DNA of 64,000 bases, taken from NCBI GenBank assembly GCA_016841945.1, contig JAENYC010000010.1, positions 1 to 64,000 on the forward strand, read 5' to 3'. The stretch's first letter is position 1. Each line of letters begins with the position of its first letter. The position numbers were made by a program, and so were the translations under genes. This DNA comes from Haloplasma contractile (GTDB taxonomy: Bacteria; Bacillota_I; Bacilli_A; Haloplasmatales; Haloplasmataceae). Under the pieces are notes generated by a model, which saw only the letters and a list, made by a program, of their open reading frames with translations, did not search any database and was not told the origin of the DNA. Of this stretch, positions 47,267 to 52,647 are shown in pieces.

Positions 47267-47293
47267 AATCCTCTGCTTAAAGCAGAGGATTTT
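47267..47293 (-). terminator. Terminator of the sugar-ABC/GH3-AraC operon
   Basis: ATCCTCTGCTT / AAGCAGAGGAT is a perfect 11-bp stem followed by a T-rich tail on the minus strand, 25 bases past the stop. Confidence 0.85.
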
Positions 47294-47317: not shown

Positions 47318-49189
47318 TTAATCATAATAACTAGAATTATTTCTAAAATACGTAGGTGTTGCCCCAACATTTTTCTTAAATAACTTAACAAAATAGTTAA
47401 TATCAAAATAACCACATAGATTTGCAGCCTCATTTACTCTTAAGTTAGTCGTTAACAATAGGTGTTTTACTTTTGTAATTCTGACTTGATTTAAGTAAGT
47501 GACAAACGTTGTTTTAACATTTTGTTTAAACAAGCGACATAAATGTTCTTTGGTAATTAAAAACTCTTCTGCAACAGATGATAGTGTTAACGGTTTAGAG
47601 TAATTTTCATCTATATATTGAAGTATATGATCAGTGATAAAATTATTAATAGCTTTATGAGTTCTTTTTCTTTTGTCTAATTCAACAGGTAGTTTGCCTT
47701 TAGCTTCACTTCCTTTTAGTACCTTTATTAAAGATTGTATGGATAATTTAGTATATTCATACATACAAATGTGACATTCAGGCAGAACTTGCCCTAATAT
47801 ATCATAAGGTGTTCTTAATGAAATGAGTAGTACCCTTACATCATTTTGAATCAAATTCGCATAAAGAACTTTTTGAACCAATGTTAAGTGTGAATCTGAT
47901 AATGCTAGAATGACTTTCTTACCTTTTACAAAAGATTGAACCTCGCTCACATTAAATTTCTTACTATCAATACTGTAATACGGAATAGAAAATTCTTCTC
48001 CTATTGTCTTTGCGATATCAATATTTTCAACATTTGCATCTTCTGCAAAAGATTGTAGATAGTTCGTAACCCCTACTACAATTGTGTTGTCATCTATTTT
48101 AAATGGTATACCATGAGATATTGTAATACTAGATAGACTTATAGAATCAGCAATTTCTTGATTTTTCTTAACATCGCACTCAATTTCTTTTTCCACACAA
48201 TATTTCTTTTTATACTTTAGTATTCTTTCTATTGATTGATCGATTATTGACATGTTTAGTTTTCCGGATTTAACCGCATCTAAAAGTGCATTTCTCACTG
48301 TTAATTGTCTTCCAAAGGTATGACTCACAATAATAATATTACATGATGCTTGTATGGCGAAAATACTAGCATTATCTAATGAGAAAGCACGAGATAAAGC
48401 CTCCATTTCTAAACAATCTGATACAACTAAACCTTCATAACCTATTTCTTTTCTTAATAAATCTTTGATTATTTTTTGAGAAACAGAAGCAGGAAATCTA
48501 TCATCTAAATGTTTATATAAGATATGTGCAATCATTACCGCATCCGGTATGTCTCCCTCTATGTAGGGAATTAATTCTGTTTTTCTCAATTCTTCAATGC
48601 TTTTATTGACATATGGTAAATCTAAGTGAGAATCAAGACTCACATCACCATGTCCAATAAAGTGTTTATACGTTGCTACAACATTCTCATTTTGAATGGC
48701 TTTACTCATATCACTTGCCAACCGGGATACCACATGAGGATCATCACTAAATGCGCGGATGGCGATTATAGGGTTTTGAGGATTTGTATTAATGTCAACA
48801 ATCGGTGCAAACACCATATTAACACCCAAACTCCTTAGTTCTTGACCTAAGATATGCCCAATTTCACTAGCAGCGTTTGGTCTGTTATAACTTGCTGCGC
48901 CGATTGCCATATGACTTGGAATATTAGTGACCCCATCATATATTCTTCTCACATTGCCACCTTCTTGATCGGTTGCAATAAAAGCGGGTACACCATTGTT
49001 TAGAATCGCAGCTTCTTGAATCTTATTCGTTAATTCTTTTAACTGTTTAGCATCTTTAATATTTCTCGTAAATAATATAATATTACCAAAATGATATTTT
49101 TTAATTAGTTCTACTATATCTTCTGCTTTATCACTTTGCCAACCAATCATCATTAACTGTCCAATTTTTTGTTCTAATGTCATGTTCAT
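47318..49189 (-). CDS. Glycoside hydrolase family 3 (NagZ-type) fused to an AraC-family DNA-binding domain
   Basis: In this 623-residue protein, residues 1-330 are a GH3 beta-N-acetylglucosaminidase-like barrel: FIATDQEGGNVRRIYDG, then KHFIGHGDVSLDSHLDLP (the KHxPGHG/DSH catalytic Asp-His dyad, with Ile for Pro), then VVSDCLEMEAL (the nucleophile Asp). A second alpha/beta domain covers about 350-500. The last 110 residues are an AraC-type tandem HTH (LSSVAEEFLITKEHLCRLFK and NEAANLCGYFDINYFVKLFKK). It is the last gene of an ABC sugar-importer operon. I take ATG 49189 (AAAGGAG 8 bases upstream) rather than the GTG at 49198. It could hydrolyse an imported amino-sugar oligosaccharide and also control the operon. 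Confidence 0.75.
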   Translation of the reverse strand: MNMTLEQKIGQLMMIGWQSDKAEDIVELIKKYHFGNIILFTRNIKDAKQLKELTNKIQEAAILNNGVPAFIATDQEGGNVRRIYDGVTNIPSHMAIGAASYNRPNAASEIGHILGQELRSLGVNMVFAPIVDINTNPQNPIIAIRAFSDDPHVVSRLASDMSKAIQNENVVATYKHFIGHGDVSLDSHLDLPYVNKSIEELRKTELIPYIEGDIPDAVMIAHILYKHLDDRFPASVSQKIIKDLLRKEIGYEGLVVSDCLEMEALSRAFSLDNASIFAIQASCNIIIVSHTFGRQLTVRNALLDAVKSGKLNMSIIDQSIERILKYKKKYCVEKEIECDVKKNQEIADSISLSSITISHGIPFKIDDNTIVVGVTNYLQSFAEDANVENIDIAKTIGEEFSIPYYSIDSKKFNVSEVQSFVKGKKVILALSDSHLTLVQKVLYANLIQNDVRVLLISLRTPYDILGQVLPECHICMYEYTKLSIQSLIKVLKGSEAKGKLPVELDKRKRTHKAINNFITDHILQYIDENYSKPLTLSSVAEEFLITKEHLCRLFKQNVKTTFVTYLNQVRITKVKHLLLTTNLRVNEAANLCGYFDINYFVKLFKKNVGATPTYFRNNSSYYD

Positions 49190-49194
49190 ATTGC

Positions 49195-50037
49195 TCACTC
49201 CTTTACTGCACCAGCTGTTAGACCTTTTATAATATTTTTCTGTAAGAAGAAATAAACAATTATTATAGGAATTGCAATCAAAGCAACTGCTGCAACCATT
49301 AATCCTTGATTAGTTCCACCTTCTTTAGAGCTAATCTCTCTCAACAATGCACTGATTGGCATTTTTCTTCTATCTGTTAAAATAAGCATTTGTAAGAATA
49401 AATCATTATAACTCCATAAAAATACAAATATAGCTGCAGATGAATAGGCAGATTTAGACATTGGTACTGTAATATGTCTCATGACCTGAAATACATTAGC
49501 ACCATCTAAATAAGCTGATTCTGCTACCTCAGTCGGTATATTTTGTATAAATCCAGTCAGTAAAATAGTCGCAAATCCTAAATTCCCAGCCACTTGTGGT
49601 AATATTACGCCTAAATGTGTACCGTGAATTTTAAAACTGACCAACATTTTATATAAAGGAAAAATAGTAGAAAAGATTGGAAACATCATACAGGCAATCA
49701 CTAATGCATAGATTAGTTTTTTACCTTTGAATTGATATCTCGCTAATGCAAATGAACTAAAAGTCGTAATGATTAATACCAAAATAACGACTGAAAATGA
49801 AATAATAAAACTATTTAAATAAGCTTGTAATATATTATATCGTCCTAATATAGCCGATTCATAATTATCAAGTGTAAAAAATTTAATTGGAAGGGAAAAC
49901 GAGTTTCTGATGATTTGATTTTTATCTTTAAAGCTATTTATTAATATCCATATAAAAGGATAAATACAGCCAATCGCCCAAATAGATAATATTGTATAGA
50001 TTAGTCCCTTCGATATTGCTTTTTTCCGATTTCTCAT
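49195..50037 (-). CDS. Sugar ABC transporter permease, MalG type
   Basis: This 280-residue inner-membrane permease has six helices, the EAA loop PTEVAESAYLDGANVFQVMRHITVPMSK and the C-terminal KNIIKGLTAGAVKE tail characteristic of carbohydrate uptake (CUT1) permeases. It is the partner of the 50052 permease and the binding protein 51051. ATG 50037 follows AAAGGGGGAAAACA. Its TGA overlaps the region of the next gene's Shine-Dalgarno site. Confidence 0.9.
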   Translation of the reverse strand: MRNRKKAISKGLIYTILSIWAIGCIYPFIWILINSFKDKNQIIRNSFSLPIKFFTLDNYESAILGRYNILQAYLNSFIISFSVVILVLIITTFSSFALARYQFKGKKLIYALVIACMMFPIFSTIFPLYKMLVSFKIHGTHLGVILPQVAGNLGFATILLTGFIQNIPTEVAESAYLDGANVFQVMRHITVPMSKSAYSSAAIFVFLWSYNDLFLQMLILTDRRKMPISALLREISSKEGGTNQGLMVAAVALIAIPIIIVYFFLQKNIIKGLTAGAVKE

Positions 50038-50051
50038 TGTTTTCCCCCTTT

Positions 50052-50930
50052 CTAAAGATTATGATTATGTCTAAATACGACATTAGCTATTAAACTCATT
50101 AAGACACCAGCAAGTACCATAAACACTGCAAATCCAGCAGCATAGCCAACATCAACTGCATTAAACGCTTTATCATACATATATGTTCCTAAAAAATGCG
50201 TTTTCCCACTTGGGTAACCATTTGGCGAAATAATATATGGAAGATCAAAAACTTTTAATGTACCCGTTATCGCAAGTACAATAACCGTTCTCGTTATATT
50301 TCTTAACATGGGAACTTGAATATGCCTTACTTTTTGAAACCCAGTACAACCATCTATTTCAGAAGCCTCCATAATCTGTTTTGACAATCCAGCTAAGCCC
50401 GTCAAAAATATAACAAAATAAAACCCAATATATTGCCAAATAACAGGACTCACAATAATCGCAAACAAACGGGTAAGATTTTGGGGGTCTTTCCAAAATA
50501 TTTTTTCTTGCCCCAATATTAATAAGATTTGATTAAACATCCCATTATTGTAATCATAAAATAAATTAAACATTAAACCTAATGCAGTAGCTGACACTAC
50601 AATTGGCATAAATAATGTTACTTTAAAAAATGTATTAAATTTCGTAATGGAATTAACAAGTAAGGCTAAACCTAAAGAAATTCCAACTTGAAATATCAAA
50701 ACTAAGCCAACAAGTATTAATGTATTAGTCAATGAACGTATAAAGGTATCGTCATTTAACATCGTTATATAATTGGCTACTCCAATGAAACTAGGATTCC
50801 TATCTAACATGTTATCAAACTCGAAGAAACTGTTTTTTATATTAATGAAGAAGGGATAAAATAAGAATACAAATAAAAATGCTAGCATTGGTATTATCAT
50901 TAAATATGCAATCCATTTTTTTCGATACAT
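50052..50930 (-). CDS. Sugar ABC transporter permease, MalF type
   Basis: The 292-residue permease has six transmembrane helices and the EAA motif SKQIMEASEIDGCTGFQKVRHIQVPMLRN near residue 190. It forms the heterodimeric channel with MalG-type 49195 for import of an oligosaccharide. ATG 50930 has a weak upstream site (AAAGAAAA), and a hairpin terminator (51019-51044) separates it from the binding-protein gene, so its expression should be lower than that of the binding protein. Confidence 0.9.
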   Translation of the reverse strand: MYRKKWIAYLMIIPMLAFLFVFLFYPFFINIKNSFFEFDNMLDRNPSFIGVANYITMLNDDTFIRSLTNTLILVGLVLIFQVGISLGLALLVNSITKFNTFFKVTLFMPIVVSATALGLMFNLFYDYNNGMFNQILLILGQEKIFWKDPQNLTRLFAIIVSPVIWQYIGFYFVIFLTGLAGLSKQIMEASEIDGCTGFQKVRHIQVPMLRNITRTVIVLAITGTLKVFDLPYIISPNGYPSGKTHFLGTYMYDKAFNAVDVGYAAGFAVFMVLAGVLMSLIANVVFRHNHNL

Positions 50931-51018
50931 TTTTCTTTAGTATAATAAATACACACGATATACATGTATTTAATACTCTCCTTTCTAAAGAATTAAGCAA
51001 TGAACTTTTTAAAAAAAT

Positions 51019-51044
51019 AAGGTATTGCATTAAGTGCAATACCT
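51019..51044 (-). terminator. Intra-operon terminator after the solute-binding protein gene
   Basis: A perfect stem, AAGGTATTGCA / TGCAATACCTT, with T-rich flank, lies directly after the SBP stop and before the permease genes. Confidence 0.75.
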
Positions 51045-51050
51045 TGTTTT

Positions 51051-52304
51051 TTATTGCTGGCTTAAGTAATCTTCTAATACATCCCTTATTTCTTCTTCGT
51101 TTCCTGTAATATAATCATTAGCTCCACCAACAAGTACAGAGAATGTACCTGCCTTAGAAGAATCTGATAGTGGTAATGTTGCTCCTACAGTTCTTGCTGT
51201 CATTGAATTCATTGATATTTGTAATTCATTTTGATTTTCTAATTGTACTTCAGGGTCAGCAGGTATTCCACCAGTTTTACAATATTCTTTTACAGCATCA
51301 GTATTAATCATTGATTCAACTAACTCAACAACTAAATCTCTCTTATCAGGATTATCCCATGCTTTTCTTGAAATATAGAATCCTGATGTAAAACCACTTT
51401 GCATATAGACTTCATTTTTTCCACCTTCGCTAGTTGGAATTGCTGGGAATGGCATCATAATTAAATCACTAGCTTTAACATCGGTTGTTTCATCAAAGCC
51501 ACCAGCAAACCAAGAACCATCTAAAATCATCGCTGCGCTACCATCTTTAAAAGATGCTTCTGCTAATGTATGTTCTTGATTACCATTTGTTGGACCAAAC
51601 CATCCAAGTTCAGCAAAATCATTAATTAATGTTAATGCATCAACCCACTCATCTTCATTTGCTTCTAAAGATCCCTTTATATCTGCAAATGCATCTGGAC
51701 CTAGCATACCTAATACTGTGTGTTCAATCCAATAATGAGGAACATCAGTTGCACCAAACGCGAATGGAATTTTACCATTTGAGATTAATTTTTCTGCGAT
51801 ATCATGATAATCTTCCCATGTCCAAACATCTTTTTCTAAGTACGGCGCTAAATCACCTGTAAATAATGTTGTATTAACAAAAACACCTTCAACAAATCCT
51901 TTTAACGGAACTGCATATGGATCCATTACACTTTCTGATATGTTACTCGCAAAATCAGGATATTCTTCTCGAATTTCTTCAATTGATACAACATAATCAT
52001 TACTTACTAATGGCTTGGCTATTTCACCTGTGAAATAAAATAATACATCAGGCTCTACACCACTATAAAATGCAGTAAGAACACTAGTCTTCCAAATCTC
52101 ATCTGAAGTAGCAGAATTATCAGAAATTACGACATCATGTTCTTCTTCAAACTCAGTCAATAAAGCCTCATAAGTTTCAGCATGTGGATCGGTTCCACCA
52201 AACATACTCATTGTTTTAATTTCTACAGTTTTTGAACCTTCACTACATCCAGCTATTAACATAGCTGTAAACAAAATTATAAAAAGCGAAAACAACTTTT
52301 TCAT
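51051..52304 (-). CDS. Extracellular sugar-binding lipoprotein of an ABC importer
   Basis: The 417-residue family-1 solute-binding protein has a signal peptide with lipobox LIAGCSEGSK, cleaved before Cys, then the SBP fold: KTVEIKTMSMFGGTDPHAET at the start, EPDVLFYFTGEIAKPLV, PLKGFVEGVFVNTTLF and SAAMILDGSWFAGGFDETTD, typical of CUT1 binding proteins. ATG 52304 follows GGAGGATAAAC. It probably delivers an oligosaccharide to the permeases 50052 and 49195. No ATPase gene is next to them, as is usual for CUT1 systems that share a MsmK-type ATPase. Confidence 0.9.
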   Translation of the reverse strand: MKKLFSLFIILFTAMLIAGCSEGSKTVEIKTMSMFGGTDPHAETYEALLTEFEEEHDVVISDNSATSDEIWKTSVLTAFYSGVEPDVLFYFTGEIAKPLVSNDYVVSIEEIREEYPDFASNISESVMDPYAVPLKGFVEGVFVNTTLFTGDLAPYLEKDVWTWEDYHDIAEKLISNGKIPFAFGATDVPHYWIEHTVLGMLGPDAFADIKGSLEANEDEWVDALTLINDFAELGWFGPTNGNQEHTLAEASFKDGSAAMILDGSWFAGGFDETTDVKASDLIMMPFPAIPTSEGGKNEVYMQSGFTSGFYISRKAWDNPDKRDLVVELVESMINTDAVKEYCKTGGIPADPEVQLENQNELQISMNSMTARTVGATLPLSDSSKAGTFSVLVGGANDYITGNEEEIRDVLEDYLSQQ

Positions 52305-52316
52305 GTTTATCCTCCC

Positions 52317-52331
52317 TGTAAACGTTTTACA
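52317..52331 (-). promoter_or_regulatory. LacI/CcpA-type operator at the sugar operon transcription start
   Basis: TGTAAACGTTTTACA is an inverted repeat (TGTAAA and TTTACA around a CGT centre), close to the cre consensus but one base longer. It lies between the -10 box and the ribosome site of the binding-protein gene, where a repressor would act. Confidence 0.5.
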
Positions 52332-52336
52332 ATTTA

Positions 52337-52364
52337 AGTATAGCACTTTTTGGTAAATTAACAA
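52337..52364 (-). promoter_or_regulatory. Probable sigma-A promoter of the sugar-ABC/GH3 operon
   Basis: TTGTTA (52359-52364) and TATACT (52337-52342) on the minus strand are separated by 16 bases, with an operator-like repeat just downstream. Confidence 0.5.
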
Positions 52365-52647
52365 TAGTATAATTTTAACATTTATAGTAATATATTAACA
52401 TTTTGATATGTTTTATATCATAAAATACTCAACTTTGAAGATTTTTTAGTATAAAAAAAGAAAAAAATATGATTTTTTTTCTTTCTTTTATATGTATTTG
52501 ATGGCTATACTCTTTTTTCTATTTTACCTTTAATATAAACTTCACAATCTTATTTTTACATCTTACCTTAAAATAGATACGTCTTACAATATAACCCATG
52601 ACATAAAAGCGTATTTTTAATATGATGTAGGTGAAAGGAGTGGACGT

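Follow-up and report, generated by a model that had tools for sequence, protein, structure and literature searches.

Sugar operons normally keep sensor and enzyme apart. Joined forms exist: Ada-type methyltransferases carry an enzyme together with an AraC-type helix-turn-helix (HTH), HexR-Glk links a sugar enzyme, glucokinase, to a regulator, and PutA has a ribbon-helix-helix DNA-binding domain. Enzyme-regulator fusions form a known class, the trigger enzymes (PMC8249747). PutA, like NadR and BirA, is a metabolic enzyme that also regulates its own uptake or catabolic genes, and it binds a single target beside its transporter gene (PMC8249747). A NagZ-like domain has been turned to transcription control in Ngs1 of Candida albicans, where it senses N-acetylglucosamine (GlcNAc) and has lost the dyad histidine together with hydrolase activity (PMC5063960). 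In Paenibacillus sp. FPU-7, the binding proteins NagB1 and NagB2 bind chitin di- and trisaccharides, and chitobiose, once imported, is cleaved by PsNagA, a GH3 enzyme of the cytosol (PMC8233162).

The window analysed here, 64,000 nt of DNA from Haloplasma contractile, carries a gene in which a glycosidase of the NagZ type and an AraC-type regulator share one reading frame. Its parts are as follows.

47318-49189, minus strand: gene for the 623-aa GH3-AraC fusion (one open frame with hits in Pfam and NCBIfam; full-length homologues elsewhere)
48215-49180, minus strand: GH3 (NagZ-type) catalytic barrel, residues 4-325 (PF00933, E 3.3e-88; a genome search returns the same stretch)
47675-48199, minus strand: second domain (alpha/beta), as in GH3 N-acetylglucosaminidases with two domains, at about residues 331-505 (alignments with 6k5j and 4zm6)
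47330-47629, minus strand: AraC/XylS-type double HTH domain, residues 521-620, with HTH_18 at 540-617 (PF12833, PF00165)
47267-47291, minus strand: intrinsic terminator downstream of the fusion gene (stem of 11 pairs, T-rich tail)

The initial annotation had placed a NagZ-type barrel and two AraC HTH motifs in a single frame at 47318-49189, and both the coordinates and the domains were borne out, the gene being read from the minus strand. It runs from an ATG at 49189, preceded by an AAAGGAG ribosome-binding site, to a stop at 47318, with no internal stop or frameshift between the domains, and ends about 25 nt before the terminator; stops are abundant on the plus strand of the same interval. 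When the 623-aa protein was searched against Pfam, Glyco_hydro_3 matched at full length over residues 4-325, and HTH_18 (8.6e-19) and HTH_AraC (7.8e-14) marked a C-terminal domain of ~100 aa with the two HTH motifs of AraC/XylS proteins. NCBIfam PRK05337 (beta-N-acetylhexosaminidase) scored 214.9 bits against a cut-off of 207. The best solved relative, 6k5j, which we take to be PsNagA, spans residues 3-504 (E 4e-85) and the second best, 4zm6, residues 4-505; residues 331-505, far from being a mere linker, correspond to the second domain of these two structures. The linker proper comprises residues 506-520, is variable and lies ahead of the HTH domain. A structure predicted from only two sequences (pLDDT 39.6, pTM 0.27) was of too low a quality for contacts between the domains to be assessed.

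Ngs1 is the nearest known parallel. Both it and RmNag of Rhizomucor miehei (4zm6) resemble the fusion in joining a NagZ-type GH3 to a second module in one polypeptide, but they are eukaryotic and that module is a GNAT acetyltransferase, not a DNA-binding domain. Among trigger enzymes PutA is the best fit, with the difference that it is a proline dehydrogenase and a repressor, whereas the fusion is a glycosidase with an AraC-type HTH and a probable activator. Neither Ada nor HexR-glucokinase senses through a glycoside hydrolase; a bifunctional regulator/glucokinase family model turned up among the profile matches. That no such case had been described (the initial annotation could name none) holds for a bacterial GH3-AraC fusion, of which we found no description in the open-access literature; it does not extend to NagZ-like GlcNAc sensors of transcription, since Ngs1 is one (PMC5063960). 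Like a trigger enzyme, the fusion unites an intact enzyme and a DNA-binding domain in one conserved polypeptide, and we put at roughly 0.7 the probability that the protein is such a bifunctional enzyme, a local activator that uses its catalytic barrel to sense an imported oligosaccharide of GlcNAc.

The catalytic half was compared with solved NagZ-type enzymes and with fused and unfused relatives. These came from a survey of about 395 genomes of one class, plus a phylum sample, with G000 denoting the genome of the window. Seven fused proteins cover the barrel and 18 unfused relatives were included.

48626-48634, minus strand: codons of the Asp186-Ser-His188 dyad (aligned with solved NagZ-type enzymes; invariant in fused and unfused relatives)
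48416-48418, minus strand: codon of the nucleophile Asp258 (aligned and invariant likewise)

The catalytic and GlcNAc-binding residues D74, R145, K175, H176, D186, H188 and D258 are invariant in all seven, in keeping with a GH3 barrel with an Asp nucleophile, and the claim of an intact active site (K175-H176, D186-x-H188, D258) thus stood. Described NagZ enzymes carry the motif KHFPGHGx4D(S/T)H with an Asp-His dyad (PMC4974736). The fusion keeps KH and the dyad D186/H188, and its loop (48647-48667) is altered, P178 being replaced by Ile: KHFIGHG is found in 7/7 fused proteins covering the site, against KHFPGHG in 18/18 unfused relatives. This change may give a substrate or a rate different from those of NagZ. 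Two further residues of the fused proteins, R81 and H93, occur in only two and in none of the 18 unfused relatives, respectively. From the alignment we expect the enzyme to be active, perhaps with an altered preference.

The altered loop, R81 and H93 would also suit a protein in which the GH3 part is a ligand-binding domain for the AraC regulator and hardly hydrolytic. Fungal Ngs1 lends this reading a precedent, being a NagZ-like sensor that lacks hydrolase activity and binds GlcNAc through residues equivalent to D74, R145, K175 and H176 of the fusion (PMC5063960). Ngs1 lost the dyad histidine, however, whereas every fused protein covering the position has H188, and dyad and nucleophile are invariant across a deep clade. 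The fused operon, moreover, has no hydrolase besides the fusion, and the genome of the window has no other NagZ-type GH3; its sole other GH3 match is part of a much larger frame of 819 aa, is 25% identical and is not of the NagZ type. We therefore consider a pure sensor unlikely.

As an active trigger enzyme, the protein would draw its ligand from the importer encoded upstream in the same operon.

49195-50037, minus strand: sugar ABC importer permease B, BPD_transp_1 (Pfam; other fused operons keep the order, at 60-88% identity)
50052-50930, minus strand: sugar ABC importer permease A, BPD_transp_1 (Pfam; solved relatives of the MalF/SugA type)
51019-51045, minus strand: hairpin resembling a terminator, in the gap between the genes for binding protein and permeases (stem of 11 pairs, T run)
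51051-52304, minus strand: lipoprotein solute-binding protein (Pfam SBP_bac_1; PDB 7ehp NagB1, E 7e-17, and 7eho NagB2, E 2e-10)

The initial annotation had read a sugar-import operon ending in the fusion, and the order binding protein, permease A, permease B, GH3/AraC, with the terminator downstream, agrees with this. A neighbourhood survey found the same importer genes and order in the seven genomes in which the operon is present, namely six with an intact operon and one, G026, in which it is decaying. In G217 the binding-protein gene reads as two overlapping frames. The strong hairpin at 51019-51045 probably lowers permease expression, giving more binding protein than permease. No ATPase gene lies in the importer operon (49195-52304 of the window), which presumably borrows an ATPase of the MsmK/MalK type encoded elsewhere.

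Among solved structures, the binding protein comes closest, though distantly, to the chitin-oligosaccharide binders NagB1 and NagB2. In combining a NagB1/NagB2-related binding protein with a cytosolic GH3 enzyme, the fused operon resembles the chitobiose system of strain FPU-7, whose solved GH3 enzyme (535 aa) is without an HTH and whose regulators beside nagB1 are a two-component pair. The unfused NagZ relatives, from the same class and partly from the same genomes, point elsewhere. Like the fusion they have the barrel and the second domain, over which they are 35-40% identical to it, but they are without the HTH, keep the KHFPGHG loop, go with a different importer and lie in recycling operons (NamZ-NagZ-kinase-AnmK-MurQ-MurR), their neighbours being NamZ, a BadF-type kinase, AnmK, MurQ, MurR, and NagA or NagB. 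The NamZ/AnmK/MurQ/MurR neighbourhood is absent around the fused genes, and the genome of the window contains NagA and no MurQ over the cut-off, so that peptidoglycan recycling as the role of the fusion was left unsupported. Because the binding protein is NagB1/NagB2-like, recycling neighbours are lacking and NagA occurs without MurQ, the likeliest substrate would be a GlcNAc oligosaccharide of the chitin type, as judged from distant matches. A congener, G001, has the full NamZ-NagZ-AnmK-MurQ-MurR operon; MurNAc recycling seems to have been lost in the organism of the window.

To place the regulatory half, we compared leader sequences across the six intact operons.

52337-52364, minus strand: promoter TTGTTA - 16 nt - TATACT (consensus scan; -10 position constant in six operons)
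52364-52399, minus strand: proposed operator of the AraC domain, tandem GTTAA-N5-TACTAT with a 20-bp period (conserved block, repeat lag, mismatch search)
52317-52331, minus strand: cre-like box GTAAAACGTTTACA, with the core ARCGNWWWCA

The leaders share a conserved block, in G000 AAAATGTTAATATATTACTATAAATGTTAA, with an information content of 34.9 bits against 24.5 in shuffles (sd 0.8, maximum 26.2). The block lies upstream of the TATACT -10 box, and its start is 57-58 nt from that box in 6/6 operons; in G000 the TATACT of the promoter is at 52342, 57 nt from the block start, and another, earlier TATACT falls inside the repeat at 28. Comparison of the block with itself peaked when it was shifted by 20 nt (mean 10.5/17 matches, against 3.7-7.8 at other lags); G000 and G004 show the strongest repeat, G265 and G217 a weak one. 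In the window, the downstream half of the tandem repeat abuts a weak -35, TTGTTA. Tandem half-sites beside the -35 are the usual position of an AraC-type (class II) activator, and by position and conservation 52399-52364 is likely the AraC site.

The initial annotation had instead proposed 52317-52331 as the operator. Because that site shifts relative to the promoter while the spacing between direct-repeat block and -10 stays constant, it was rejected as the AraC site and is, from its sequence, better read as a catabolite-repression (CcpA/cre) box. The ARCGNWWWCA core occurs in five of the six leaders at varying positions, a frequency of at least 3/6 never being reached across 2000 shuffles, and CcpA-like LacI proteins are present, scoring below the CcpA cut-off. 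When 18 genomes were searched for the operator motif with up to 2 mismatches, sites with at most one mismatch were found only in front of the fused operon; G164's own site has 2 mismatches, and the remaining 2-mismatch matches were about as many as in the reversed control. A wider regulon was thereby rejected, and the fusion looks like a single-target regulator, as far as motif searches can tell. In G026 and G182, the genomes with a broken operon, the motif was absent at up to 2 mismatches.

The leader also bears on whether the enzyme, though active, uses its HTH as a DNA tether, as a repressor or as an unrelated regulator instead of activating this operon under ligand control. Such roles fit poorly with a conserved site that abuts a weak -35 at constant spacing, where a class II activator usually sits, and with 20-bp direct repeats, as expected of AraC-type dimers. 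The direction of regulation is unreadable from sequence, and PutA, itself a fused trigger enzyme, is a repressor (PMC8249747); even so, we regard these roles as quite improbable. The conserved DNA site before the importer suggests that the enzyme would turn on its own operon.

The bifunctional trigger enzyme would then work as follows. The importer would take up an oligosaccharide containing GlcNAc, a chitin oligosaccharide being the likeliest; the GH3 part would bind it in the cytoplasm and release GlcNAc from it, to be consumed by NagA and related enzymes. Ligand in the barrel would alter the grip of the dimeric AraC-type domains on the direct repeat of 20-bp period, and from this repeat, abutting the -35, the fusion would switch on its own importer-enzyme operon in the manner of a class II activator. 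The cre-like box would add catabolite repression, and hydrolysis would remove the bound ligand. It is from comparison of sequences that we infer enzymatic activity, its substrate, binding to DNA, control by ligand, and activation as opposed to repression. Taking fusion, active site and operon together, the most economical reading is that of the initial annotation: one protein that both hydrolyses and controls genes locally. More tentatively, the circuit could be a self-timing switch, in which the inducer is the substrate of the activator itself, the activator destroys its own signal and output follows the flux of imported oligosaccharide. If this last idea were true, no earlier example would be known to us of a bacterial glycoside hydrolase serving as the DNA-binding activator of its own uptake operon. 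If a catalytically complete glycosidase does carry its own AraC domain in this way, the active site would be read out as a gene-control signal, which would make the protein a compact part for sensing GlcNAc oligosaccharides. It would be a bacterial counterpart to Ngs1, the two representing two outcomes of recruiting one fold to transcription control.

The fused form was found in 8 genomes from four families of one class and is intact in six of them: G000, G004 (75% identical to the fusion of the window; locus L001, whose contig has an equal length, was counted together with it, not separately), and G265, G217, G143 and G164 (57-67%). Matches in the phylum sample were confined to the same class, no relatives of the fusion were found in the viral contigs searched, and on plasmids only unfused GH3 proteins were among the best matches listed. 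In a tree with the 18 unfused relatives, the seven barrel-covering fused proteins form one clade with 100/99 support. Where measurable, in two close pairs with dS near saturation, dN/dS was about 0.06-0.09 in barrel, middle domain and HTH; in the same pairs, linker 506-520 drifts freely and is the only segment free of constraint. Since dN/dS is low in all three domains, both halves are being kept, and the fusion is, by these comparisons, old and conserved, with both halves under purifying selection. A frameshift or assembly error, which could have undone the original claim, was ruled out by the intact homologues in other genomes, the fused form recurring in eight.

A chance or assembly join of two genes with a non-functional HTH, for which the in-frame stop of G026 and the deletion remnant of G182 might speak, is hardly credible and already refuted by conserved full-length homologues: the junction is the same in six intact genomes of four families, the HTH is conserved and under purifying selection, and the broken copies sit in operons decaying as a whole. 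In G026 one TAA in frame breaks the fused gene, and the genes for permease A and the binding protein are interrupted as well (L011 2136-2140; L031 9927-11874); decay seems to affect the operon as a whole. In G182, where the operator block is missing, a deletion has joined a fragment of permease A to the fusion from residue ~203 onward (L073 8500-9933).
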